Shown: positions 1 to 47,089 of the stretch, piece after piece | Numbering within the stretch: the stretch's first letter is position 1 | Layout of the letters: each line of letters begins with the position of its first letter | Source of the DNA: a virus | Length of the DNA: 64,000 bases | Virus record (IMG/VR): IMGVR_UViG_3300021440_000013 | Coordinates: 124,001-188,000 of that record | Direction: 5' to 3' (one strand) | Program-made: the position numbers and the translations under genes | The notes under the pieces: generated by a model | Databases searched by the model: none | What the model was told of the DNA's origin: nothing | Seen by the model: the letters and a program-made list of their open reading frames with translations, nothing else

Positions 1-2022
1 TCTACAGACCGTCCCGTCTTTCACGTTAGAGAAATCATTCAGATGCGTAAGGACGAAGTGGTGTCCTTGCCACTTGTTCATTCTGTCGTCTTTGATGACG
101 GGGAAACACTCACGAACGTACTTCAAAATGAAACGATCTATTCCTGGTTGTTCTGGAAGATCTTCCGTGTGTATAAAAACACACGCATTTTACCGAAGCA
201 CCATGTCGCAAGTGTGCTTAAAGGCAATGCGCTTAACACGGACACGCACGCGAAACTTTGCAGTGCAATCCTTAAATCCATCGTAGCGGACGAGAACCTT
301 TTCTATCCGCAGCAAAAGGAGCCCGTCCTTAAACTGATCTATAAAACCATCAGTGACGCGATGAGTGAACTCTCGCTCTTAAGTGAAGCTAACGTCACAT
401 CGATCGATATCCTGGATTTCATCCAGGCGGCGCACCACCCGACCGTCACGCAGCTCAAGGATCAGGCACACCAGGATCATCGCGCGATCAAGTATGCATA
501 TGAGGAGACCGTCAAACTCATCCGCACGTCGAAGGATTTTGAGGAAAATGGTCTGGCTAAAGCCGTTAAAGCTGAAATGGTCAAGACCAATCAGGTTGTG
601 CAGTGCGTGGTCTTCCGGGGCTTTGGTAGTGATGTGGATGGTGCAATCTATTCTGAACCGGTCTGGGGGAACTATACCTTCGGGAATACGCGCTTTTATG
701 ACTTCGTAGTGGATTCTCGAACGGCTGCAAAGAGTCACTTCTATTCTGACACGGCGCTTAAAGACTCCGAATACATGGCGCGTAAGTTTAGGTTGTTTGC
801 CACGGTGCTTGAACGTATTAACTACACTGACTGCGGCTCAACCGACCACGTTCTATGGGAAGTCAAAGGAGAACAGCGCGATAGCTCTGGTACGGTGCTT
901 TATCCGGGTGATCTGCCTTTCCTGATTGGCAAGAACTACCTTGATGAATCAACCGGCGGCTATCTCTCAATCGAAGGAGATGAGCGGCACCTCATCGGAA
1001 AGAAGATCAAGTTCCGTTCACTACTTCACTGCAAAGAGCCGGATCCTAAAGCAGTGTGTCATATGTGCGCGGGTCGTCTCTCCGAGAACATCTCGCGCTT
1101 TGCCAACCTAGGCCATCTGGGTAGTGTAACGACCACCAAGGAGATTACCCAAAACCTTCTCTCGATCAAGCACGTCAACACCAGTAGCACGCTGATCAAG
1201 ATCTTGATGGGTGAACATGAACGCAAATACCTTAACACCGGCACCGCAGGCACCGCAATCTATCTGAATGAGCCTCTAAAGATGCTCAGGCCTAAGCTGG
1301 TGGTCTTGCGTGATGAGGCCACAGGCCTTATTGCGCTTAACAACGTGGAGGATCTAGAACAGATTACGCTCTCCCGTATCTCACAGGTGACGGTCGTTAA
1401 ACTTATCGTTGAGGCGCACGGCGTTATCCAGGACACGACACTCACGGTCGAGCAAAAGAGCAAACCGGCTATGATGTCGGGCGATCTGATCCGTTACTTG
1501 AAACTTAAGTCATGGACCATCGACGAGCAGAACAACTTCATGATCGATATGTCGGGTTGGGATTACCGTCTACCGGTCTTCGTTATGCAGAATAGGGAGG
1601 AGAGCTACGTTGACTTGGCCAATCAAGTCAACGTGATGGTCCAGTCTAGCCAGAAGAACCTGCAAAAGCGTCAAGCCAAAGCCGCCGCCACACTCCTCTT
1701 GCAAGAGCTCTTTGATCTAGTGAACTCGAAGCTGCGCGTTAATATCCTGTCTTTTGAAATCATCATCTATGCTTTGATGGTGGAGTCAAAGAGCAGCTAT
1801 GCGCTTGCACGCGGTGCCATGGACCCGGTGTTGGGTGTGTCAGAATTGTTGACAAAATACCGATCTCTTGGAGCAGCGATGGCTTTTGAAGACCAAGCTG
1901 AGACGATCACGGACCCGGCGAACTTCTACCAAGGACGCCGACCCGATAGTCCGCTCGATGTGTTCTTTGCACCCAACGAGGTTGTGAGGGCCTATCGAAA
2001 CAAACACTTTACGGTAAACTAA
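1..2022 (+). CDS. Phage RNA polymerase beta' subunit, C-terminal part (5' partial)
   Basis: The reading frame is open from base 1 through the first internal ATG (43), so the true start lies upstream; 673 residues are visible. The product is the C-terminal half of a multisubunit RNA polymerase beta'. It has the second zinc site of bacterial beta': Cys codons at 832, 1030, 1057 and 1066, in the pattern DCGSTD...C-x8-C-x2-C. This is followed directly by a stretch with NLGHLGSVTTTKEITQNLL (about 1105-1170), which matches in position and pattern the bacterial trigger-loop segment after the zinc site ([20 protein letters not shown]). Bacterial beta' is one chain; here the N-terminal part is a separate gene at 47090-49116. 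A strong hairpin follows the stop. The family call is firm by motif order. Whether this is the virion or the non-virion polymerase of phiKZ-like phages cannot be told. Confidence 0.85.
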   Translation, partial: STDRPVFHVREIIQMRKDEVVSLPLVHSVVFDDGETLTNVLQNETIYSWLFWKIFRVYKNTRILPKHHVASVLKGNALNTDTHAKLCSAILKSIVADENLFYPQQKEPVLKLIYKTISDAMSELSLLSEANVTSIDILDFIQAAHHPTVTQLKDQAHQDHRAIKYAYEETVKLIRTSKDFEENGLAKAVKAEMVKTNQVVQCVVFRGFGSDVDGAIYSEPVWGNYTFGNTRFYDFVVDSRTAAKSHFYSDTALKDSEYMARKFRLFATVLERINYTDCGSTDHVLWEVKGEQRDSSGTVLYPGDLPFLIGKNYLDESTGGYLSIEGDERHLIGKKIKFRSLLHCKEPDPKAVCHMCAGRLSENISRFANLGHLGSVTTTKEITQNLLSIKHVNTSSTLIKILMGEHERKYLNTGTAGTAIYLNEPLKMLRPKLVVLRDEATGLIALNNVEDLEQITLSRISQVTVVKLIVEAHGVIQDTTLTVEQKSKPAMMSGDLIRYLKLKSWTIDEQNNFMIDMSGWDYRLPVFVMQNREESYVDLANQVNVMVQSSQKNLQKRQAKAAATLLLQELFDLVNSKLRVNILSFEIIIYALMVESKSSYALARGAMDPVLGVSELLTKYRSLGAAMAFEDQAETITDPANFYQGRRPDSPLDVFFAPNEVVRAYRNKHFTVN

Positions 2023-2121: not shown

Positions 2122-4434
2122 ATGCCTAAAACCACCATCCACGTCTATACCCATCACCTTGTCGTAAGGGATCCGTCTCAACGAATCCGAGATGCGCTTT
2201 ATGCGCTAGCGAATAAGTACACCCAGTTTTCAATGGAATGGGACCGCTATCTGAGGCAACAGGTCTGGCGTCCCGTAAAGACCTTTGGTGTCTATGTGAA
2301 CCCAGGCGACGAGTTTCGTTTCCATATTGGCCAGCTAGAACCCCTTTTTAGGGAGCTCAAGGGCTTTCACGTAGATCCGAGTGGGTATGACGTCGTCTAT
2401 CATCCTGAGCCCGCGTGTGCCGCTGTAGAGCTTCCTGTAAAGAAAGGTTGGGTACTTCGCCGCGAACAGATCGCTGCTAAAGAATTCATCGTGAACAACA
2501 CGGAACCCGGCCATAATCACCCGATCCTGATGATCCGCACCGGGGGTGGTAAAGCACAGCCGCTCGATGCGCTCATTAAAATACCCGGCGGCTGGACGAC
2601 GATGCGTGACATTCAACCCGGTACCGTGATCACCGCGTGGGACGGCACCCCTACTAAAGTCAATGGCGTGTTCCCCCAGGGTAACACACGTGTCTATAAA
2701 GTCAAGTTTGAAGATACGCGAGAAACCAAGAGCGATGAGCAACATCTTTGGAAGATCTATAGATCCGCGACGACTCAGGATTTTGAGGTCCTTGAGACCT
2801 ACAAAATCCTTGAACTCTTAAAAAGCGGCGAAGTCTATACGGACTTACCTCAGAGCGAAAAGGGCGGTGATGTAGAACTCACGATGGATCCGTTCGAATA
2901 CGGAAAACATCTTGCAGAGACACTTAACCAAGCCACATACTACGAGATCAAACCTTATCTAAACGCCTCACATCGTCAAAGGGTAAGTTTCTTGCGTGGT
3001 CTTATTCATAAAGGCAGCGTTTCACATCAGGACGGCGTAATCTACAAAGACATCAAGGAGGTTCGTCTTTTTAATATCGTTCGGTTAGTGGTGCGTTCAC
3101 TAGGCGGTAAGACAACCAGTGTGGAGATGGACGGGTTTTATTACACCGGCATCATCCTACCTAAGCCCTTCGAGGTGTTTTCCTTCCTACCACCAAAAAC
3201 CTACAGGCTGCGCTTAAAGTTAACGAAACTTGAATACGCAGGGATCGAACAGACGCAGTGTATCGCGATTGATCACCCGAGTCATCTTTATGTCACGGAT
3301 CAATTCATCGTCACGCACAACACCGTCACGGCGCTTGTAACGGCGTCCGAACTCGGTAAGCGCCTTGCGATCGTGGTCTTGGCGATGTATATCGACAAAT
3401 GGGTCGGTGACTTGAAAAACGTCTACGACATCGATGACTCTGAGATCGGGATCATCAAGGGCGGAAACATCCTTCAGCGCACCACCCTTTACCCAAACTC
3501 AGGTAAACAGATCCCCAAGGTGTTTGTGATTTCGATCCCAACGCTTAATGCGTGGTATCGGATCTATGAGGACGATCCAACGAACCCCATACTTGACGCG
3601 TATGAGTGTAAGCCCTATGAGCTCTTTGAACATCTAGGGATCGGTACGGTGATCTTTGACGAAGTTCACCAACACCCTCACCCCGTCTTCAAAGTCTACA
3701 CCTATCTTAATGTCCAAAAGACCATCAATCTTTCAGCCACACTGCTAACGAAGGAGCCAACACTTCGAAAAGTTCAGTCGATGATGTTTCCTTATTCGAT
3801 GCGTTTTGACAAAGTCGAAGCCCCGCAGTACATTGAATGTCAGGCGTGTTCATACCAGATCCACGGCTTTAACCACAGCGGGATTCAGTTCATGATGAAA
3901 GCTCGCCAGAGCTATTCGCATGTCGAGTTTGAAAAGAGCATCCTCAAGCACAAAAAGCTCAGACCGCAGTATCTTGAGATGATCCTCTCGCTTTTTGAAG
4001 AAGCTTATCTTGATGATTATCTACGCGGTGATAAAGCCCTCATCTTTGTCTCAACGATCAAGATGGCGCGGGTTCTTGAAGACTTGATGAGAAAGAAGTA
4101 CAAGAAATATAAAGTCATGACCTATGTGGAAGGCGAGCCACTTGAAAACGCAACCGAATCAGACATCTGTATTTCAACCATGATCTCGGCAGGCACAGCG
4201 ATCGATATCCCTAAGTTAAGAGTTTCGATCATGACGATCTCGGTCGATAGCCCCATCTCAAACGTACAGGCACTGGGTCGGCTCCGCCAGCTCAATGATC
4301 GTGATACCCGCTTTTATTACTTTTACTGCACCAACATCCCCAAGCAGGTGGATTATCATCGAAACAAACTCGAGCTCTTTAAAGACCGTGTAAAAAGCCA
4401 CAGCGTGCGTTTGTTTAGCACACTGTATGCATAA
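2122..4434 (+). CDS. SF2 DNA/RNA helicase (UvsW-like) interrupted by an intein
   Basis: The precursor is 770 residues. Removing the 256-residue intein leaves a 514-residue superfamily 2 helicase. The rebuilt Walker A reads RTGGGK/TVTAL across the insertion. Motif II is IFDEVHQHP (about 3655-3675), motif III is NLSATLL, and motif VI is QALGRLRQ (about 4270). A Gln-containing LRREQ segment upstream fits a Q-motif-like element. The motif set resembles T4 UvsW and other phage helicases that remodel branched DNA or R-loops; this role is inferred. ATG 2122 was chosen because an upstream GTG at 2083 would add 13 unlike residues, although the ribosome site before 2122 is weak. The gene sits between two hairpins and is probably its own unit behind beta' C. 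Confidence 0.88.
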   Translation: MPKTTIHVYTHHLVVRDPSQRIRDALYALANKYTQFSMEWDRYLRQQVWRPVKTFGVYVNPGDEFRFHIGQLEPLFRELKGFHVDPSGYDVVYHPEPACAAVELPVKKGWVLRREQIAAKEFIVNNTEPGHNHPILMIRTGGGKAQPLDALIKIPGGWTTMRDIQPGTVITAWDGTPTKVNGVFPQGNTRVYKVKFEDTRETKSDEQHLWKIYRSATTQDFEVLETYKILELLKSGEVYTDLPQSEKGGDVELTMDPFEYGKHLAETLNQATYYEIKPYLNASHRQRVSFLRGLIHKGSVSHQDGVIYKDIKEVRLFNIVRLVVRSLGGKTTSVEMDGFYYTGIILPKPFEVFSFLPPKTYRLRLKLTKLEYAGIEQTQCIAIDHPSHLYVTDQFIVTHNTVTALVTASELGKRLAIVVLAMYIDKWVGDLKNVYDIDDSEIGIIKGGNILQRTTLYPNSGKQIPKVFVISIPTLNAWYRIYEDDPTNPILDAYECKPYELFEHLGIGTVIFDEVHQHPHPVFKVYTYLNVQKTINLSATLLTKEPTLRKVQSMMFPYSMRFDKVEAPQYIECQACSYQIHGFNHSGIQFMMKARQSYSHVEFEKSILKHKKLRPQYLEMILSLFEEAYLDDYLRGDKALIFVSTIKMARVLEDLMRKKYKKYKVMTYVEGEPLENATESDICISTMISAGTAIDIPKLRVSIMTISVDSPISNVQALGRLRQLNDRDTRFYYFYCTNIPKQVDYHRNKLELFKDRVKSHSVRLFSTLYA
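2554..3321 (+). mobile_element. Class 3 intein with a degenerate LAGLIDADG-like region
   Basis: The 256-residue insert begins with Ala (GCA 2554) directly after the Walker A Lys and ends THN before extein Thr+1 (ACC 3322). Cys1/Ser1 is absent, but the WCT set that defines class 3 inteins is present. His64 and Trp66 are in block B (DEQHLWKI), Cys236 is in block F (QTQCIAIDHP), and Thr254 precedes His255-Asn256. In this class the block F Cys makes the first attack in place of residue 1. Class 3 mini-inteins are about 140-150 residues. The extra length holds a segment at 146-156 (FLRGLIHKGSV) that looks like the FLRGL-DADGSV of a LAGLIDADG endonuclease with its acidic residues lost. Splicing is therefore likely, homing unlikely. 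Confidence 0.85.
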
Positions 4435-13493: not shown

Positions 13494-13750
13494 TTAAAGT
13501 ATAGATGTAGTGGAAGATCGACCAAAAATCGAAACTAGGCATTCTATCGAAAGTTAGACACGTGTAAGTTCACCCTATGGCAATAAGCCGCTTTACTTAC
13601 ATCGCATTGTTTAAACTAACGAGGATTGACCTACATGGTTGTAAGGTGGAGCCGTGTTCATAAAGTCCATCTAAAGATTCTTTTAATTAGGTGGTTGGGA
13701 AGCTCTTTTTTAGCCGCCTGTCGCTGTTTTCTCTCTCAAAGGAAGAACTC
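13494..13750 (+). promoter_or_regulatory. 257-nt intergenic leader ahead of a codon-biased fibre gene
   Basis: AT-rich, with an AATTAAAGTATAGAT stretch at the 5' end that could carry a promoter. AAGGAAG at 13740-13746 is the ribosome site for ATG 13751. A 39-codon open frame (13635-13754) overlaps that start, but its composition is not convincing. No terminator hairpin follows the hydrolase gene. The promoter itself is not demonstrated. Confidence 0.35.
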
Positions 13751-15034
13751 ATGAGTCTGCATATCGTTCGTGTATCCGCTCTGCCGGATCCCCTGGTTGC
13801 CAACACCATCTACCTGCTGGCCGTCTCTGCCACTGAAGTCCAGGTCGTTACCGTTGGTAACAACATCAACAACCCGCGCAAGACCCAGCTCTCGAGCGAA
13901 GTCGCGACCCTGATCAACAACTCGGCGGCCAGCCTGACCGCTGATTACGACGCCAAGATCGCTGCCGCCGTTACCGCTGCCGGTGGTGACGTTGACGGCG
14001 CTTTGGCCGAAGCCAAGGCTTACACCGATACGGGTCTGGCTGCTGAAGTGGCCCGTGTCGATGCGAAGATCGCCGCTGACGACGCCGCTGGTCTGGCTGC
14101 TGCTAAGGCCTACACCGACGCCGAACTCACCGACGAAGTCACTCGCGTCGATGCCAAGATCGGTGCTGATGTGGCCGCTGAAGCTGCTCGCGCTGATGCT
14201 GCCCTGGCTGCTGGCGACTCCGCCACCCTGGACGCTGCCAAGCTCTACACCGACAACGAAGTGGGCGATGAAGCCACTCGCGTTGATGCCAAGATTGCTG
14301 CTGATGTGGCTAGCGAAGCTGCGCGTGCTGATGCTGCCCTGGCTGCTGGCGACTCCGCTACCCTGGCGGCTGCCAAGGTGTATGCTGATGGCCTGAGTAC
14401 CTCCGAAGTGGCCCGCGTGGATGCCGCTATCGCTGCTGGCGATGCTGCTACCCTGGCGGCTGGTAAGGCCTACACCGACTCCAGCGTTGCTGCTGAAGTC
14501 ACCCGTGTGGACGCCAAAATCGCTGCTGACATCGCTACTTCCGATGCCGCTGGTCAAACCGCGCTGAACAACGCCATCGCTGGTGAAGTGACTCGCGTCG
14601 ACACCAAGATCGCTAACGACGTTGCTGCCAACTCGGCGGCTGACCGTGCCTACACCGACGCTGCTGTTGCCGGTGAAGTGACCCGTGTCGATGCCAAAAT
14701 TGCTGCCGACATCTCTGGCGCAATCGGTAACCTGGACCTCTCCAACAGCGCCCAACTGGCTGCCAACATCGCTGAACGCGATGCCCTGGTCCTGACCAAG
14801 AACAGCTTCGTGCTGGTTTCTGACGCCACGGGCGACGCCACCGTTACCGCCGGCGCTGCGCTGTACTTCTACAACACGGGCGACAGCTCCTTCCTGAAGA
14901 TCGCTGAATACGAGTCCCTGGACATCGTGATTCCGAACAAGGCGATCCTGGAACAGTTCTCCGACGTCGGCGGCCAGCTCGCCTACAAGGGCGCACTGGT
15001 GGGCACCGTCCAAGAAGGCACCCACACCTGGTAA
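13751..15034 (+). CDS. Repetitive trimeric-type tail fibre protein
   Basis: The 427-residue protein has a short N-terminal domain (IVRVSALPDPLVANTIYLL) shared with the gene at 57421, which suggests a common attachment point. Residues about 70-325 are Ala/Asp-rich heptad-like repeats of the kind AAKAYTDAEVxxEVxRVDAKIAAD. A compact C-terminal domain ends in GTHTW. Such repeats form long trimeric coiled-coil shafts in phage fibres. The codon choice is unlike its neighbours: CTG, GCT/GCC and AAG dominate and GC content is clearly higher, consistent with high expression or recent transfer. It stands alone between an intergenic leader and a strong terminator. ATG 13751 was chosen for its AAGGAAG site and the shared N-terminal motif. 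Confidence 0.75.
   Translation: MSLHIVRVSALPDPLVANTIYLLAVSATEVQVVTVGNNINNPRKTQLSSEVATLINNSAASLTADYDAKIAAAVTAAGGDVDGALAEAKAYTDTGLAAEVARVDAKIAADDAAGLAAAKAYTDAELTDEVTRVDAKIGADVAAEAARADAALAAGDSATLDAAKLYTDNEVGDEATRVDAKIAADVASEAARADAALAAGDSATLAAAKVYADGLSTSEVARVDAAIAAGDAATLAAGKAYTDSSVAAEVTRVDAKIAADIATSDAAGQTALNNAIAGEVTRVDTKIANDVAANSAADRAYTDAAVAGEVTRVDAKIAADISGAIGNLDLSNSAQLAANIAERDALVLTKNSFVLVSDATGDATVTAGAALYFYNTGDSSFLKIAEYESLDIVIPNKAILEQFSDVGGQLAYKGALVGTVQEGTHTW
14020..14720 (+). repeat. In-frame tandem coding repeats of the fibre shaft
   Basis: Imperfect repeats encode AxAAGDSATLxAAKxYTD and EVTRVDAKIAAD blocks about 30-40 residues apart. Several DNA stretches are near-identical between copies (for example around 14190-14240 and 14320-14370), so copy number could change by recombination. 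Confidence 0.75.
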
Positions 15035-15082
15035 GCTTGACTCAGCCGGGTTGATCTTGACCTAGCTGTTTGGCTAAGTGTT

Positions 15083-15112
15083 TAAGGGAGGAGGCTTCGG
15101 CCTCCTCCCTTA
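15083..15112 (+). terminator. Hairpin terminator
   Basis: A 13-bp perfect stem (15083-15095 with 15100-15112) closed by a TTCG tetraloop. The tail TTAGTGTT is only weakly T-rich. Confidence 0.8.
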
Positions 15113-15203
15113 TTAGTGTTAGTCATAAAACCAAACAGCAAATCGTCTGACTAGAGGTACATGTACATCTTCCCTAACAACCAATACTTTTTATAGGTTG
15201 ATC

Positions 15204-15956
15204 ATGCCTAACTTACTGACCCGAACCCCGCTCGCTGCGCCGCAAGAACTCGCTGAACTCTATGTCGTTTGGGATCGTAAAGATTACCGAATGACGCTTG
15301 CCACACTTCTTTCTTTGGTGACTAAAGAGAAGCTGGGTCTGGGGAATGTTGAGAACACAGCTGATGCTGACAAGGCTATTAGCACTGCAACGCAGGTCGA
15401 ACTGGCTAAAAAAGCAGATGCCATCAGCGTCCCGACCAAAGAAGCATTTGACGCCTTGGCGGGTCAGCTTCAAGACTTTGTGTCGATCGATACGCTTAAC
15501 ACCGCTGTCGATGCGATCGTTAATCGTCTAAACGACTACACCACCAAGGTAGAGACAAACCAGGCCGTCTCAGCAGCACTCTCTCCAATCACGCTTGCGC
15601 TCTCGAACATCCAAAGCTCGATCCAAGCTCAGGAACAAGCGATTCAGAGCCTTCAAACTGCACAAGCGAATAACATCACGCTCACGCAGCTTAATGAAGG
15701 CCTGAGTCATCAAGCCGATGCGTTTAATCAGGGTTTGAACACCCTGGCTCAAGCAACCAGTGCGCAGATTACCGCCATCGGAAACCAGCTCACTGCATTC
15801 CAAACGGTCTTGACGAGCTTTGAGCTTCTTCTGAACGATAAAGCCGACCGGGTGCATCGTCATGCCATCGACGATATCGATGGCTTACGCCAGTATATCG
15901 AAGAGATCGCACTTATGGTTGAGCCGGAAGTTACCGCTAACGGCCATGAGTGGTAA
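15204..15956 (+). CDS. Tail fibre / fibre-associated protein
   Basis: The 250-residue protein has a segment typical of phage fibre connectors (GLGNVENTADADKAISTATQ, about 50-70). A long Gln/Ala-rich helical region follows (about 80-215), likely a trimeric coiled coil, then VHRHAIDDIDGLRQYIEEI, a motif common near fibre tips. The C-terminus is NGHEW, the same G-x-H-x-W ending seen at 13751 and 57421. It lies between a terminator and the FN3-module genes. The fibre role is well supported by pattern; position along the fibre is not known. Confidence 0.7.
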   Translation: MPNLLTRTPLAAPQELAELYVVWDRKDYRMTLATLLSLVTKEKLGLGNVENTADADKAISTATQVELAKKADAISVPTKEAFDALAGQLQDFVSIDTLNTAVDAIVNRLNDYTTKVETNQAVSAALSPITLALSNIQSSIQAQEQAIQSLQTAQANNITLTQLNEGLSHQADAFNQGLNTLAQATSAQITAIGNQLTAFQTVLTSFELLLNDKADRVHRHAIDDIDGLRQYIEEIALMVEPEVTANGHEW

Positions 15957-15983
15957 GTGCGTACTTAATCTAAGGAGATAGAG

Positions 15984-16559
15984 ATGTCCGAGATTAAGCG
16001 CGTCACTACCCTACCCACTACACTGGGTATGGGCGATATATTGATCCTAAAGGAAAATGAGACCGTCTCCCTGGCTGTGGTGGATCAGAGTGCCACCAAG
16101 GCGTATCGTCTAGGCGAGCGGGTGTGTCTGAGTGGTCCTTCGTCGATCTTTCATAAACAGGAAGGGCTGTGGCTTATTCAGGGCTACACGGACCGGGAGA
16201 CCTACCAGTGTGCATCAAACGATGGCACAGTGTGGCAGGAGGGTGCGTATATCCACTTTGTGGTGAGTAACACGGCGCTATCGACCGCGTCTTTCACGGT
16301 CAATGAGCGCGTCTTTACGATCGCGCTCATGCCGGTTAGTGTTTCCCCACCCGTTATCGATGCCCCCACGGCCAACGCCATTAACGTAGCGGTGAGTGGG
16401 GCGCGAGTGATCGCCTCGGCCTTTACGCTAAACGACACTACGAGCGTGGATAGTCACGCCTCAACCGACTGGGAAGTGGCCACCGACAGTAACTTCACAA
16501 CGATCGTGGCTTCGAGCTATGCTGACAAGGACAACCTTGTTGCATGGACGATCCCTTAA
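15984..16559 (+). CDS. Fibre-locus protein with a shortened FN3-like module
   Basis: The 191-residue protein starts after AAGGAG. Its N-terminus (EIKRVTTLP...GDILILKENE) loosely matches the IVRV-ALP domain of the fibre genes at 13751 and 57421. A middle domain (SFTVNERVFTIALMPVSV) and the start of an FN3-like module (HASTDWEVATDSNFTTIVASS) recur in the genes at 16579 and 18362. Here the module stops at about half length (NLVAWTIP, then stop). The second half, containing a YVRxRY-like strand in the other two, is missing. It may be a naturally short version or an ancient truncation. Likely a fibre or baseplate decoration component. Confidence 0.6.
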   Translation: MSEIKRVTTLPTTLGMGDILILKENETVSLAVVDQSATKAYRLGERVCLSGPSSIFHKQEGLWLIQGYTDRETYQCASNDGTVWQEGAYIHFVVSNTALSTASFTVNERVFTIALMPVSVSPPVIDAPTANAINVAVSGARVIASAFTLNDTTSVDSHASTDWEVATDSNFTTIVASSYADKDNLVAWTIP

Positions 16560-39427: not shown

Positions 39428-42400
39428 TTACATCGTTCTTCGCATATCAAGGGCGGATGAGCCAGACTTATCCTTGCGACCCAGGTTGATTCTGTCCTGT
39501 TCTTTCGGAGAAGCTTTTTCATCGCCTGCTTTAGCAGCCTTAGTGGTGGCACTTACAACCGTAGCCATCATCTCAGCCACCTTTTCAACCTTGACATTAC
39601 TCAGGATCTCACGCAGCACTACCAACGATTCTTGTTGGATACCAACAGATTTGTCTAGCGCTGTACTTAATGACCCAAATCCAGCGGCCATGCCTTCGCC
39701 CGACTCAGTGCGTCCGGTGCTAACGACCCCCGGTGTGCGGTTGTCTAAGAAAAGCCCAGAGCTAGAACTCTTAGGTTCTGGCGCCTTCTTTTGCCCCGCT
39801 GCGGGTCCGGCATTAGCAACCGCTGCTTTTTGAGCCGATACCTTTTCACCTGCCATCGGTGTACTGATCGGACTCTGAGCTGGATCGATATCAAGACCAG
39901 GTCCTTTACTTGGCGCCGCGGAGAGACCTAGCGAGCCAGTGGGTGCTTTGACACCGTAGCGGCTTGATTTCTCATTAAGCTTGGCGCTTAAGTTATCGTA
40001 GACCTGTTTAACGGTGAGGGGTTTACCATCTTTGTAAAAGATGTTTTGATTCTTCGAGGCCGGGCCTGGAAAACGATTCGCTGCAATCGCGTCAGGCGGC
40101 ATGGAAAGAAATGCTTTTGCGCCACTGGCCCCTAAGAAATGCGCCAGGTAAAGGTCAGTCAAATTTGGATTTGACTTGACCGGTGCGATGACTTTCTTAT
40201 TCTCCTTAATGTATTCAGCGGCCATCAAACTTGACGCTTCAACACTAAACGGAGACGCCGTCTTCTCTAAGCCATACTTAGAAGAATACTTAGAAACCAT
40301 CGAATCCCAGGTTGACCGAATGAACTGAAAGAGTCCCGCGGCGGAGCTTGTTGAAGCTTTGGCTTGGGGATTCATGTCTGATTCAACCGCAGCAAACGCC
40401 TGCATGAGAGCCGGGTCCTCACCTGCACGTTTGGCGTGCGATGCGATCTGGGCTTTGATGTCGCCACTTGCGCCATTTTCAGCGCTGGCGGTAGTTGCTT
40501 TCCCGCCGGTGGAGGCGGGTTTCTCTTCAGCGTCAGGTGGAGGAAGATCGTTGGTCGTTGAGTTAGCGGCAGCGGTATTTTGCGCCATTGACAGTTTAGC
40601 ATCTTTGGAAGGAGGCGTTCCTGCTTTGGCGTTTTGATCCGAGGCTTTCTTAACCGCAACGGCAGTATCGACCGTGTTGGTCGAAGTCGTTTCAGCTTTT
40701 ACCGCTTCGCTAAATTTAGGCGGAGGGAGCACCTGATCTTTTGCGGTTTGCTGTAGATTAGACGCTACGGGCGAGGGCGGGGCATTGAGTAGACCCAGTG
40801 CAACGTCTTTGTTACGCCGACCCTTTGCGCTGTTAGCCATGCTACCGTATCCGGCGCCACCACGCATGACACCCGCGCTGATCATGGCGTCTCGCAACTG
40901 ACCATTAGTTTTCGCTTCCGAAGGGTTCTTTTGGATCCCTGCGGGCTCTACGTGCCAAGGTTCTTGCCCCACGGGTCTGGTGAAACCATACTTCTTCATC
41001 AAGCCCAGTTTGTCAAGCTCGTCAGCGATCTTTGAATCGATGTCGAGCGCTAAACCAAACTCATGAAGCGAGTTGCCTGGCGCCGCAGCTCTATCGCCAT
41101 ACTTACGCTTCATCTCGACTTGTTCTTCGTAGGTGCGTACACCCGAAGTGACAAGGATGCTCTTGCCTGTATTCTTTCCATACTCCTCAGCCATCCCTAA
41201 GAAGAGCTTGAGCATGGTTGGATTAAGGCTATCGATGTTGATACCCTTTTTCTCAAACTTAACGAACTGGCGACCTGCTGTACCCTCCAAGGGTGCGCCT
41301 GGCGCCATCGCGACTTTACCCGCTCCGCCTACAAGACTCTTTTCTTCACTGCCTTGCTCGCGCGCTGTGGTGCTGGCTGGTGCCGCACCACCATCTTCAC
41401 TCTGGGTGGCCGTCTGTACCTGGGCTTTATTCTGCTCAGCGTTCTTACGGCGCTCCTCTTCGACCTTCGCTTTTTGAGCTTGGTCGATCTGACTCTCTTT
41501 TTCTTTGTCTTTAAAGACGCCGAAGGTGAGTTTGTCAAAGAGCGTTTTAGCAACCGATGTCGCGGTTGTTTCACCGAGCTTTGCAGGAGGCAGCGTTGCT
41601 TTGGTGTCTTTCGGTTTATCCGCTTTCGCCTTAGCGATCAACGCTTCGATGCTGTCCTTGACAAACTTGTTGTCCAAAGAGAGCTGGCTTAATGCTTTAA
41701 CCGGAGAGGTGTCTTCATCATAGGGGCCACTTTCAAAACCAACGAGTTCGAGATACTTGATCCGATCGTCCGGTTTAAACTTAGCCACCTCTTTGAGCTT
41801 GGCTTTGTTATTGACCGCATAGAGCGCGGTCATGTGTGTCAAGAAGAATGGCTTAAAGCGTTTATCGAACCAACGGCTAAACTTCTCGCCTTGCTCAGTA
41901 TCTTCCTTGTCAATCTTAAAGAGCTCAAGGAGTTCTTCAGATTTGACTTTCTTATCATTGATATAGGCTTTACCGTTATCGTAACCGACACGCCCATCTT
42001 CAAGATACGCTTCCAACATGAACGGGTAGTAGTTATACTGATCCACGCTCTGATTGTAACCAAAGCCATATTGGTTTAAGCGGATGCGTTCAAACTCATC
42101 CGCGTTGTTACGCGTCGCGTATTGGTAGAGTTTATAAAGTCCATAGCCGGCACCTGCTATCGCTGCCGCACCTAAAATCACTGGGCTGCTGATCACGGAA
42201 GCAACGGCCCCTATTGCACCACCGGCTACGTTTAACGCACCCATGGCAAGGCCAGGTAGGGCGCGTGTCAACGCAAAGCGCCCTAGTCCTAATGCACCCT
42301 TGCCGGCAAGCTTAGCGGCACCCCACGCGCCTTTACCAGCAAGCTTGGCTACGCCTCCCACTCCCTTAACCAGTGCACCTGGCGTCATCGCGAGAAGTTT

Positions 42401-45400
42401 ACCCGCTAAACCCATCACGCCGCCAAGACCTTTAGTGATCAAGGAGAAGAGTCCACCAAAGCCCGTCATCGCCATTTTGAGGCCATTTCCAAGCAAATCC
42501 ATCAGTCCTGTACCGCCCTTATAGCGTGCGGTCAGATCTGCTTGAGCGCCTTCTTTTTGGCGAGATGCTTTGAGTTCAGCTAACTTTTCTTCACGCTCTT
42601 CAATACTTCCGTCACGTGTACCACTTCCATCGGTGTCGTTCCAAGCACGCTTGGCCGAATCGATCTTTTGCTTAACACGTTTAAGAAGAGAAGGTTTCTT
42701 TTCAACTTGAGGTTGATTTTCGGGTGTGGCTGCCGCAGCACCTTTTTCTCCACCCTTTAAAAACCCGCCAATACTACTTGCAAGTCCACCCGCCATAGCG
42801 GCACCGGTCCCTAATAGACCGCGTGCCTTACCCTGCGCTAACTTAAAGCGACTTGGTTTGGCAGGACCCATCTGGTCTGGAAGTCTAGGCCCCACGAAAT
42901 CACCTGGACTCTGAGCCTTAGGGGTCGACCAACTCGGTTGCTTGAATCGATCCTTGGCAGCTTGAATCATCGCATCGATACGGTCCTGATACGTCTCGTT
43001 GGGTTGTAAGTCCGATATCCCTCTGTCAATCGCATCTTTTTGTCGAGCACCGGGATATATCGGTCCAACAAACTCATCTGGTCTCTGGGTCTTGGTAGCG
43101 GTGTGTTTTGTTTTTAGCGCGCTGTACTGGTATTTGGCTTTATTGAACAAGCCTTTCTTTTTGTCACCCGGCTGCATCGGACCCACAAAGTCTTCCGGTG
43201 TTCTACCCAAAAGCTTGTCTCCGAGTTCGCGTCCCTTGCCTTTTAGGTCAGTGAAGTTTTCTTTATTCTTAAAGAAATCCATTCCACGAGAGAGAAGTGA
43301 GCCTGAGCTTGTTCCGATTGCAGCAGTGCTGACTCCAGGCTGCATCGGACCCACAAAGTCCTTTGCGACCTCTTCACTGACAGCACCACCTTTACCAAAA
43401 CCAAAGAAACCCTTGATCTTGTTCTTGAGCTCTGCGGTCTTTTCTTTGATCTCAGCCGACTTGATGGCTACTTCGTCCTTAGCTTCCTTTAAAACCTCGT
43501 TCAGGTTCTTAGGCGCTTTGTCGACAGGACCGCCAGGCGGCGTTACCTTGAGCTTGGCAGATTCACGCTTCTTAATGCGTTTTAACACATTCACACGCTG
43601 GTTAAGCATGATGTCGCGGATATCGAGCAAGACCTCGTAAGTATCCTTGGCGTATTTATTTTCACCAAAGTTGATACCAAACTGACCCCAGTCGGTGGGT
43701 TGATCCCACCACTCTTTGATCTTTCCACCCATTGAGAGCGACTTATCGGTCAGGACATTAAATCCTTTTCTAGCTTTATCTCCTACCCACGCAGCCGCCT
43801 TGGTCGCTAGACGGATGACGTTGGTGACGTTTCCACGGATCTTATCACCATAGCGATCATAGAGACCCTTGGAGCGTTCTTCAAGACTCAGGATGATGTT
43901 ACCCACCGAGTCAACGATATCGCCCTTAGCCTTATTGAGCTTATCCATCGTGTCAAGCACTTCGCCCGTGACCGCGTCACGATAAAAACCCGCCTTGAGT
44001 TTAACGGCACGAATAACGGGTTCTACGCCATCAGGCAAGTACAGGTCTTTGGCTTCATTAAGCTTATCCCCAACCCAACCAAAGACTTTACTCACCTTGT
44101 CTTTGATGAACTTTAAACCATTGGGAAGTCCTTCGGTTAGAAAAGACTTCGCGCTATCGAAGACGGTGCTTGAAAAAGATGCTGCTTTTTCATAGAGCGT
44201 GCTAAACGCTTTACGCGTACCGCTCTCTTTATCGGTGAGTTGGTCTTTAAGAAAGTCTTTTGCTGAGGTGAAAAGACCCTTGGCTTTCTCGGTTTTCTCA
44301 CCCGGTGTAAAGAATTCTTTAAGCGCCTCGATTGTGCTTGAACCGGCTTTAAATCCTAGGTCCATCGTGCCGCGCATGATCGAAGTAATCATGCCGCGGA
44401 AAGTGCCATCGTGAACAAGTTGGTTTGGAATAAAGCCACCCGCACCCTGGCCACCGCTTTGCACAAGCTCACTGGCCAGCTTTTGCTGTTCGGTAAGCAG
44501 CTTTACCGTGTCAGCGGTATCTTTTTGGATCTTAGCGAGGAGCTCGTTGGTGAGCTCCTCTGCGCTCTTACCCTTGGTACGGTGACGTGAAGAGCTCTTG
44601 GGTGTGGTTTCCGGCGGTGCGGCGTCACGTTTAAAAAGACCTTCGACCTTCTCACCCAAATGTTGAATGGAAGCCATCAAGGCGCCATTCATACTTTGCA
44701 GATCGATCATCTTGCCCTTTGGTGCAACCTCTTCACCTAGGTTCTTACGCACCTCCTGAGCCATGGGTCCTGAGTGCTCTTGATCATCGCCCTTACCCGC
44801 CTGATAGTTCCAGTTAAAGAGCTTGGTCTTTTTAATACCTTCGTAGGCTTCCCTTGGATTAAAACGCTTAACCTTGTCAAAGAAACCCTCTTCTTTGTCG
44901 GGTTTAGACTTCTGTCCAAAGTAGCGTGCCGCCAAGTCTTTATAATCCTGACTCCCAGGCGCACCCTTAAAGCGATCACTGACCGCCTGGAGGAGTTCTT
45001 TTGGGTTAAGCTCTTTGATCGCTTCTTTAACGTTGATGTCCGAACGAATAAAGGCGCTGTCTTCCATGAACTTGGCGTAAGCTTCTTCATCGATGTCGTA
45101 CTTGCCGTCATCACGCTTTTTCGCTAAACCTTTCTTAGCGATTAGATCGCCATAGCCCGCCTTTTCAAACCCAGCGATGGTTTTATCAGACGAAGGTGTC
45201 CTCTTACGGATGTCCTTGATGGCTTTAGTCAGTGTGTTAGCATCGCGGTTTTTAGTATCGCTTTGCTCGCTTGAGCGAAGCTTATATTCAATTAAGTCTT
45301 GGAGTTCATCTGAGAGCTGTCCGAACGAAGGGGACGAGAGGATCGAATCAGGATCAAGTGGGTTATTACTATCCCGACTCAGCCTTGATAAGAATCGTTT

Positions 45401-47038
45401 AAGCTCGATGATTTGGTCTTCGTCGAGGTTTTCATTTTCGGTAAAGAGTTCGACGGCTTTTTCGACTATGTAGTTATAGCCGGATCTCTGGATATGGGAG
45501 GCAAGGTCTTTTTCAACCCGCGCCCCCATGTCCGTTTCACTGGTGAATTCCTTACGCTTAAAATCGTATACCTGCCGGTCGGCTTGATTTCGCCCGGTTC
45601 TTAACATGACGATTTCGCGGTGAATGTTCGCCAGGTGCCCAGGGATAATGTCGGTTAGACTGATGTGTGCTTTGGCATCAAAACCCATCGTAGGGTTATC
45701 GAGCTCATCGAGATTCGTCTCAGAACCAATACTTCGACCCGGATCCCTGTCCGTGAAGTTATCCATGAGCATGTCAAGGGCACGGAAGAACTTACCCTTA
45801 GCACCAACCTCGTTGGTTTTGTCAACCCAGTTTTGAGACTGCCTTAGTTTCTCGATAGCGCCTGCTGGGTTGTTAGCAATATTGGCAAGGCCGGCAAACT
45901 TCTCCTGGATGACCGAGTCATCACCACCGATCTGTTTGATCCGTTTAGCCATCACGTCGCGAAACCATTCCGCGATGTTGGCACCCGCCGTTGCGCCAAG
46001 CATCTCGGCTTTTGACATGGGTTCCATACCCATGTCAACCATCGATGCGTTCATTCCATCCAGCATCTCTTTAGCGTCAATGGCGCTGTCAAGCTGCATG
46101 TCGGCCGTATCGAGCGCCGAAGTAAAGCCAGAAACTGTCTGACGCGCAGTTTCTTTAAGGCGGTCCATACCTTTTTTCAGGAAGGACTTATCGCCATAGA
46201 GCGACTCAATAAACTTTTTCTTACTGACTTCTTTAAAGCGCTCGCTTTCGGTGATCTTTACGTACTCTGGCATCGCGGTGTTTTTAACCACCGCTTCCAG
46301 TTGCGTTTGGAAAACTTTGAAACTGGCCTGAGCTTTTGAGAAGTGTTCTTTTTGTGCAAGCAGCGAACGAATCTGAAGTTCAAGCGACTTGCGTTGAAAG
46401 CGCTGGTTGGTGTTAACCGTATATTGCGTCTGAATGGAGAGGCTACGCTCCATCGAGCGTTGCAGATCGAAGTTGGCATTAAAGCGCTTAGCACCGATGC
46501 GGTCTCGAATCAGGTCTTTGGCGTTATCGAGCTTACCTTGTTCTTGCTGCTGCTCAAAGACCCCTGCAAGCGACATCGCTACCGCTTGTTCTTCTTGGTT
46601 AGGGACTGTGTTCTGCTCACCACCGATGTCTATGCCACCCCAGCGTGCGATTTTCTCAGTCAGGCTTTTAAGGCGCTTAGCACTCTCTGGAACAAGCTGG
46701 TTAATCTTGGCGGTAACACGCCCGACACGGGGCTTTATTTCTCTTACCGTCTCATCGTATAGTTCGTACATCCCGGTGGTGAGCTCACCGGTTGCATCTG
46801 CCACTTCCCCGTAGCTATCAGGGAGCGTTTTGCGAAGGGTGTCCTTTACAAACTCTGGGCTAACCACCGCGTCTTTAACGCCAGACACGGTACCCATAAA
46901 GACGTTGCCAATGACACCACGCGCTTTTTTCTTACCCGTGGCTTCCTGATTAAGCTCGCCATCAATTTCATTCTCGAAGTCGAAATTAAAATCTGTATCA
47001 AACTCCGGAATATCCGAAACCAGCTCCTTCTTGGCCAT
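39428..47038 (-). CDS. Giant tape-measure-like tail protein with M15 peptidase and lytic transglycosylase domains
   Basis: The 2536-residue minus-strand protein starts at ATG 47038 after GGGAGG. The N-terminal part is helical and charged, as in tape measures. Around 1226-1380 a DFVGP motif occurs four times. A Gly/Ala/Leu-rich hydrophobic region at about 1520-1640 contains membrane-spanning stretches (ISSPVILGAAAIAGAGYGL). Near 1935-2035 is an M15 D,D-peptidase: SGVRTYEEQ, NSLHEFGLALDID (zinc His and Asp) and EPWHVEP (catalytic Glu and zinc His). At about 2195-2320 is a lytic transglycosylase with Glu2219 (AFAAVESDMNPQA) and SSAAGLFQFIRSTWD. Together these would cut both peptide and glycan bonds during DNA entry. 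Confidence 0.85.
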   Translation of the reverse strand: MAKKELVSDIPEFDTDFNFDFENEIDGELNQEATGKKKARGVIGNVFMGTVSGVKDAVVSPEFVKDTLRKTLPDSYGEVADATGELTTGMYELYDETVREIKPRVGRVTAKINQLVPESAKRLKSLTEKIARWGGIDIGGEQNTVPNQEEQAVAMSLAGVFEQQQEQGKLDNAKDLIRDRIGAKRFNANFDLQRSMERSLSIQTQYTVNTNQRFQRKSLELQIRSLLAQKEHFSKAQASFKVFQTQLEAVVKNTAMPEYVKITESERFKEVSKKKFIESLYGDKSFLKKGMDRLKETARQTVSGFTSALDTADMQLDSAIDAKEMLDGMNASMVDMGMEPMSKAEMLGATAGANIAEWFRDVMAKRIKQIGGDDSVIQEKFAGLANIANNPAGAIEKLRQSQNWVDKTNEVGAKGKFFRALDMLMDNFTDRDPGRSIGSETNLDELDNPTMGFDAKAHISLTDIIPGHLANIHREIVMLRTGRNQADRQVYDFKRKEFTSETDMGARVEKDLASHIQRSGYNYIVEKAVELFTENENLDEDQIIELKRFLSRLSRDSNNPLDPDSILSSPSFGQLSDELQDLIEYKLRSSEQSDTKNRDANTLTKAIKDIRKRTPSSDKTIAGFEKAGYGDLIAKKGLAKKRDDGKYDIDEEAYAKFMEDSAFIRSDINVKEAIKELNPKELLQAVSDRFKGAPGSQDYKDLAARYFGQKSKPDKEEGFFDKVKRFNPREAYEGIKKTKLFNWNYQAGKGDDQEHSGPMAQEVRKNLGEEVAPKGKMIDLQSMNGALMASIQHLGEKVEGLFKRDAAPPETTPKSSSRHRTKGKSAEELTNELLAKIQKDTADTVKLLTEQQKLASELVQSGGQGAGGFIPNQLVHDGTFRGMITSIMRGTMDLGFKAGSSTIEALKEFFTPGEKTEKAKGLFTSAKDFLKDQLTDKESGTRKAFSTLYEKAASFSSTVFDSAKSFLTEGLPNGLKFIKDKVSKVFGWVGDKLNEAKDLYLPDGVEPVIRAVKLKAGFYRDAVTGEVLDTMDKLNKAKGDIVDSVGNIILSLEERSKGLYDRYGDKIRGNVTNVIRLATKAAAWVGDKARKGFNVLTDKSLSMGGKIKEWWDQPTDWGQFGINFGENKYAKDTYEVLLDIRDIMLNQRVNVLKRIKKRESAKLKVTPPGGPVDKAPKNLNEVLKEAKDEVAIKSAEIKEKTAELKNKIKGFFGFGKGGAVSEEVAKDFVGPMQPGVSTAAIGTSSGSLLSRGMDFFKNKENFTDLKGKGRELGDKLLGRTPEDFVGPMQPGDKKKGLFNKAKYQYSALKTKHTATKTQRPDEFVGPIYPGARQKDAIDRGISDLQPNETYQDRIDAMIQAAKDRFKQPSWSTPKAQSPGDFVGPRLPDQMGPAKPSRFKLAQGKARGLLGTGAAMAGGLASSIGGFLKGGEKGAAAATPENQPQVEKKPSLLKRVKQKIDSAKRAWNDTDGSGTRDGSIEEREEKLAELKASRQKEGAQADLTARYKGGTGLMDLLGNGLKMAMTGFGGLFSLITKGLGGVMGLAGKLLAMTPGALVKGVGGVAKLAGKGAWGAAKLAGKGALGLGRFALTRALPGLAMGALNVAGGAIGAVASVISSPVILGAAAIAGAGYGLYKLYQYATRNNADEFERIRLNQYGFGYNQSVDQYNYYPFMLEAYLEDGRVGYDNGKAYINDKKVKSEELLELFKIDKEDTEQGEKFSRWFDKRFKPFFLTHMTALYAVNNKAKLKEVAKFKPDDRIKYLELVGFESGPYDEDTSPVKALSQLSLDNKFVKDSIEALIAKAKADKPKDTKATLPPAKLGETTATSVAKTLFDKLTFGVFKDKEKESQIDQAQKAKVEEERRKNAEQNKAQVQTATQSEDGGAAPASTTAREQGSEEKSLVGGAGKVAMAPGAPLEGTAGRQFVKFEKKGINIDSLNPTMLKLFLGMAEEYGKNTGKSILVTSGVRTYEEQVEMKRKYGDRAAAPGNSLHEFGLALDIDSKIADELDKLGLMKKYGFTRPVGQEPWHVEPAGIQKNPSEAKTNGQLRDAMISAGVMRGGAGYGSMANSAKGRRNKDVALGLLNAPPSPVASNLQQTAKDQVLPPPKFSEAVKAETTSTNTVDTAVAVKKASDQNAKAGTPPSKDAKLSMAQNTAAANSTTNDLPPPDAEEKPASTGGKATTASAENGASGDIKAQIASHAKRAGEDPALMQAFAAVESDMNPQAKASTSSAAGLFQFIRSTWDSMVSKYSSKYGLEKTASPFSVEASSLMAAEYIKENKKVIAPVKSNPNLTDLYLAHFLGASGAKAFLSMPPDAIAANRFPGPASKNQNIFYKDGKPLTVKQVYDNLSAKLNEKSSRYGVKAPTGSLGLSAAPSKGPGLDIDPAQSPISTPMAGEKVSAQKAAVANAGPAAGQKKAPEPKSSSSGLFLDNRTPGVVSTGRTESGEGMAAGFGSLSTALDKSVGIQQESLVVLREILSNVKVEKVAEMMATVVSATTKAAKAGDEKASPKEQDRINLGRKDKSGSSALDMRRTM
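42880..43370 (-). repeat. Four dispersed DFVGP coding repeats in the tail protein
   Basis: The codons for DFVGPMQPG (two copies, about 43180 and 43350), DEFVGPIYPG (about 43070) and DFVGPRLPD (about 42897) occur at spacings of about 40-60 residues, each inside a basic, Pro/Gly-rich linker. They look like short linear motifs rather than folded domains. Confidence 0.8.
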
Positions 47039-47089
47039 TTTTAGATAGCCTCCCATAATGTAAAGTTTAGCATCCAAAGGATCTTCGCT

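Follow-up and report, generated by a model that had tools for sequence, protein, structure and literature searches.

Class 3 inteins are defined in published work by Trp at B:12, Cys at F:4, and Thr at G:5, together with the absence of an N-terminal nucleophile (PMC3196547, PMC5050341). The mycobacterial DnaB inteins (M. smegmatis DnaBi1, 6bs8; M. chimaera DnaB1, 6rix/6riy) share with the intein described here the Walker A site, the Trp-Cys-Thr (WCT) triplet, a DxxH motif, the terminal THN, and the HINT fold (PMC6195587, PMC7664689). However, they are mini-inteins of 139-145 aa housed in DnaB, whereas ours comprises 256 aa within an SF2 helicase, keeps the remnant of an endonuclease domain, and is followed by Thr, not Ser, at +1. 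The class 3 inteins of mycobacteriophages (TerL1-a and others; PMC5050341) are phage-borne and occupy the "classic" P-loop Lys/Thr position, but their exteins and phage groups are different.

The window, which is the whole stretch of 64,000 nucleotides analyzed here, corresponds to positions 124001-188000 of a 216,876-base IMG/VR record; the features of interest are listed in Table 1. The helicase reading frame is open over 770 codons when read from the DNA, and its ATG at 2122 matches the starts of related proteins better than the mechanically called GTG at 2083. We assign the extein to the phiKZ gp75-like SF2 helicases based on sequence similarity, its SF2 motifs, and its position beside an RNA polymerase subunit gene, a gene order common to phiKZ, EL, LucasX, Rebecca, and others. 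Both phiKZ gp75 and the window helicase match the same PHROG family, phrog_16, and the structural model of the precursor resembles XPB and T4 UvsW.

Table 1. Features of the helicase locus, in window coordinates
Feature	Position	Strand	Match or conservation
Non-virion RNA polymerase beta-type subunit gene, adjoining the helicase gene	43..2022	+	phrog_3015, E=1.1e-149
Intein-containing SF2 helicase gene (phiKZ gp75-like), 770-aa precursor	2122..4434	+	phrog_16 DNA helicase, E=1.2e-31
N-extein, 144 aa, with MIRTGGGK at its end, the first half of Walker A	2122..2553	+	
Class 3 intein, 256 aa, AQPLDALIKIPGGW...IVTHN	2554..3321	+	
Block B, Asp61-x-x-His64-x-Trp66; shares DxxH with M. smegmatis DnaBi1 and supplies W of the WCT triplet	2734..2751	+	
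Degenerate first LAGLIDADG motif, DPFEYGKHL (relatives DPYxLGxLLGDG)	2887..2913	+	
Degenerate second LAGLIDADG motif, LRGLIHKGS (relatives LxGLLDTDG)	2992..3018	+	
Cys236, fourth position of block F; only cysteine in the intein and the nucleophile predicted to start splicing	3259..3261	+	invariant, 81/81
Thr254-His255-Asn256 (G:5-G:7), residues of C-terminal cleavage; Thr254 is the T of the WCT triplet	3313..3321	+	
C-extein, 370 aa, from Thr401, with DEVH box and helicase C-terminal domain	3322..4431	+	

Elsewhere in the same record (G000), outside the window, lies a 618-aa relative of chimallin, the phage nuclear shell protein (L109:1219-3075), which matches PDB 7sqq (E=2e-17) and the PHROG nuclear shell protein phrog_4795 (E=2.1e-69); its presence suggests that the phage is probably nucleus-forming. 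The phage falls within the phiKZ-like group that encodes chimallin. Two further loci of the window were recorded. An ORF at 13691-15034 (+), matching a family of unknown function (phrog_7946) in its C-terminal part only, is overlapped by an antisense ORF of nearly equal length (13736-15025) within a local G+C peak of 0.558 (14001-16000). The region 39428-47077 (-) encodes a 2549-aa protein that combines tail fibre, transglycosylase, and endolysin family matches in one chain.

The insert occupies precursor residues 145-400 and separates Lys144 from Thr401 in the Walker A sequence GGGK|T (intein numbering applies to Cys236, His255, and Asn256, precursor numbering to Lys144, Ala145, and Thr401). 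The GGGK residues are 141-144, and the corresponding Walker A threonine follows 257 residues on, at 401, where it serves at once as the +1 nucleophile and as the Walker A Thr. The 256 residues start with AQPLDALIKIPGGW and finish with DHPSHLYVTDQFIVTHN; their removal in silico leaves 514 aa and restores GGGKT. The original prediction had placed an intein at 2554-3321, directly after the Walker A lysine, with Ala first, a THN/T end, lengths of 770, 514, and 256 aa, and His64, Trp66, Cys236, and Thr254 as key residues; each of these particulars was confirmed from the DNA. The class 3 signature is complete: position 1 is Ala1 and offers no Cys, Ser, or Thr nucleophile; Trp66 (B:12), Cys236 (F:4), and Thr254 form the WCT triplet and align with 6bs8; and His64 (B:10), the terminal His255-Asn256, and the +1 Thr401 supply the remaining residues. 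In addition, Asp61-x-x-His64 reproduces the block B DxxH of DnaBi1 (PMC6195587).

Comparisons with known structures agree with this assignment. Using the insert as a phmmer query against the PDB, we retrieved the class 3 DnaB inteins as best matches, 6bs8 of M. smegmatis (E=1.3e-7) and 6rix (7e-7)/6riy of M. chimaera, followed by gp41-1 inteins. The HxW, C..(V/I)D, and THN motifs all align with those of the class 3 DnaB inteins, pairing HLW with HQW, CIAIDHPSHLYV with CVEVDNPEHLYL, and one THN end with the other. These E-values with aligned motifs, and the presence of relatives of the insert in 438 phage records, indicate that the similarity is not due to chance. AlphaFold2, given the insert and 31 relatives from viral contigs, produced a model (pLDDT 93.5, pTM 0.91) with a HINT fold around a shrunken PI-SceI-like domain. 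All Foldseek matches at E <= 0.001 were inteins or related HINT domains, including PI-SceI (2.4e-10, the top match), 6riy (1.9e-7), and 6bs8 (7.6e-7). In the precursor model, the junctions and the P-loop are the low-confidence part, with pLDDT below 50 at residues 140-143 and 390-398.

Conservation was assessed over 81 distinct inteins, the window intein included. Scanning viral contigs with the single window protein as query gave no match, and an alignment query yielded the relatives. His B:10, Trp B:12, Cys F:4, His G:6, and Asn G:7 are present in every member, and Thr G:5 in 79, although conservation at G:5-G:6 is partly built into the search, as one of its two patterns includes these residues. 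Position 1, by comparison, is a non-nucleophile in 73 of the 81 (A, E, M, L, D, Q, G, P, F, Y, or K); across all 81, it is Ala in 48, Glu in 7, Met, Ser, and Cys in 4 each, Leu in 3, and others in the remainder. A free position 1 beside an invariant Cys F:4 is the pattern expected if the latter, and not residue 1, begins the reaction. Features, fold, and relatives thus concur with the class 3 (WCT) reading advanced in the original prediction.

The same intein family was also observed at other sites. In SNF2-type helicases (SL2, PhiPA3) it splits the Walker A Lys|Thr pair, and in a terminase-like protein of Eowyn it follows GK (jointly L010:2045-4954, L011:2021-5191, and L018:1611-4550). In EL gp39, an RNA polymerase subunit that is not a P-loop ATPase (L005:1781-4891), a related class 3 intein of 366 aa with intact LAGLIDADG motifs is inserted between ...AAGK and a Ser. 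For proteins of this kind, public annotations like "DarB-like antirestriction" or "terminase large subunit" probably stem from the shared inteins.

A separate scan of viral contigs, with the C-extein alone as query, revealed 77 distinct helicase loci, of which 67 are empty and 10 filled. The +1 residue is Thr in all filled loci, and Gly occupies this position in 9 of the empty ones. Moreover, five pairs of cultured phages are distinguished by a single in-frame insert located exactly at the GGGK|T codon boundary, while their flanks are 83-98% identical overall: Rebecca/RAY (insert of 1035 bp), EL/GXNNE2 (744 bp), ACP1/pAEv1810 (609 bp), VP4B/2TSL (594 bp), and JN03/SPFM3 (1038 bp). The +1 codon differs within the Rebecca/RAY pair, encoding Thr in the filled and Ser in the empty copy. 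JN03 (L024:1623-4367) and SPFM3 (L025:1623-3329) show an abrupt drop in identity immediately left of the intein, to 63% over the last 30 bases and 68% over 100 bases, against 87% over the whole left flank and 97.5% on the right; this likely represents a co-conversion tract whose donor was distant. Rebecca and JN03 cluster in the intein tree (97/93) but not in the extein tree, which points to transfer between phages.

For the phage of the window itself, neither a megablast search of phages with the leading 25 kb, which gave no match, nor the viral-contig scan found a close empty relative. Its nearest extein, L050/L117 (98/99), likewise bears an intein, though the pairing is not resolved in the intein tree. 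Few branches are supported overall, and the comparison of the two trees does not resolve whether this copy descended vertically with its helicase.

The endonuclease domain of the window intein has decayed. Relatives of 340-366 aa carry two LAGLIDADG motifs (ILGAILGDG and GLLDTDG in LucasX), whereas the window intein lacks both motif Asp residues and approximately 90 residues between the motifs, and does not qualify as a LAGLIDADG homing intein, a type recognized by two such motifs with acidic catalytic residues. No Pfam endonuclease domain was detected in it; among the 32 inteins scanned, LAGLIDADG_3 was found in 19 and Hom_end in 16. Decay is recurrent across the family, as seen in EL gp40 (248 aa), VP4B, KpLz, and ACP1 (about 200 aa each), and L090 (144 aa), and the window copy appears as an intermediate state of decay among the helicase-site inteins. 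The decayed EL, ACP1, and VP4B copies also show the empty/filled polymorphism, which implies that such copies are either lost precisely or spread through ordinary recombination. With its endonuclease decayed, the window copy is probably immobile and probably transmitted only vertically or via ordinary recombination.

We consider it very probable that the insert is a class 3 intein that excises itself to yield the 514-aa helicase, and that it descends from a homing element whose endonuclease is now degenerate. Following the chemistry studied in homologues (PMC3196547, PMC7664689, PMC6195587), Cys236 would attack the Lys144-Ala145 bond to form a branched thioester, and the N-extein would then be handed to Thr401 in a second branched intermediate. 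Asn256, assisted by His255, would cyclise and release the 256-aa intein, after which an O-N acyl shift would join ...GGGK to T... and produce the helicase with an intact Walker A motif. The element itself would have come to the Lys|Thr site by homing in an ancestor. Since the P-loop of the unspliced precursor is split, with GGGK separated from T, this form is expected to be without ATPase activity; the precedent of the P-loop intein of RadA, as cited in PMC6195587, supports such inactivity. On these grounds, the proposal that splicing is needed for ATP binding appears sound.

Several alternative explanations were weighed against this reading. It is extremely improbable that the insert is a permanent helicase domain, for example a regulatory or DNA-binding one, that is never removed. 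The original prediction had named conservation of the insert as a domain of related helicases as grounds for its rejection; instead, the insert is absent from 67 of 77 distinct homologues, and the five phage pairs differ by its exact presence. Although the model gives its central region (approximately residues 69-232) a good fold despite the lost endonuclease motifs, so that this part is not simply junk, the splicing residues are all retained, and the same element splits the Walker A Lys-Thr/Ser pair in unrelated ATPases (SNF2-type helicase, terminase). We give almost no weight either to a class 1 intein with an odd first residue or to a class 2 intein with direct attack by the +1 residue: Ser or Cys does occur at position 1 in 8 of the 81 relatives, and such members could start that way, but the window intein begins with Ala, no member of the set departs from Cys F:4 or Trp B:12, and class 2 is reported solely from KlbA (PMC3196547).

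An intein of class 3 ancestry that has lost splicing, leaving the helicase inactive or replaced, is somewhat less remote, yet still very unlikely. The decayed endonuclease fits this scenario, and inactive class 3-like inteins are known; however, one of these, the pseudogene Arsp-FB24 Arth_1007, lacks Cys F:4 and His B:10 (PMC3196547), whereas in the window all catalytic residues are intact, the frame is open over its entire length, and the helicase motifs are conserved. Furthermore, the 216,876-base record, which is possibly incomplete, yielded neither a second helicase copy nor another member of this intein family. We regard as improbable, though less so than the foregoing, that the endonuclease-less intein is retained as a control element delaying helicase activation, for instance by infection stage or by place relative to the phage nucleus; if this were the case, presence or absence of the intein would alter phage behaviour. 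A redox switch like that of DnaBi1 was judged unlikely: the DnaBi1 disulfide uses a second cysteine (Cys48) that the window intein lacks, and with Cys236 as its only cysteine an internal disulfide is impossible. Cys236 could still be modified itself or form a disulfide with a cysteine of an extein.

Returning to the predicted self-excising class 3 intein, its nearest counterparts are those of the gp75-like helicases of jumbo phages (EL gp40, LucasX, Rebecca, Proteus phage 10, AerS_266, FishSpeaker, VP4B, and ACP1), which share its gene, its Lys|Thr site, and its class 3 residues at about 35-40% intein identity. Several of them have intact LAGLIDADG motifs (340-360 aa), whereas VP4B, KpLz, and ACP1 carry mini-inteins of about 200 aa. 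PI-SceI, the yeast VMA intein, resembles the window intein over both the HINT and endonuclease parts, but belongs to class 1, is longer, and has an active endonuclease. The window intein belongs to a large, already known family; InBase listed the phage EL inteins, and our literature search found no description of them or of inteins in helicases of nucleus-forming phages. Beyond the original prediction, our analysis shows that the endonuclease is degenerate, supplies exactly matching empty sites in relatives, and places the intein in a phage that is probably nucleus-forming; class 3 inteins thereby come to include one from an uncultivated, chimallin-encoding jumbo phage. At a single codon boundary within one core gene, the family ranges from empty sites through full homing inteins and decayed forms like the present one to mini-inteins of 144-200 aa, a series that offers a natural data set for the class 3 homing cycle and a supply of diverse splicing domains of this class.
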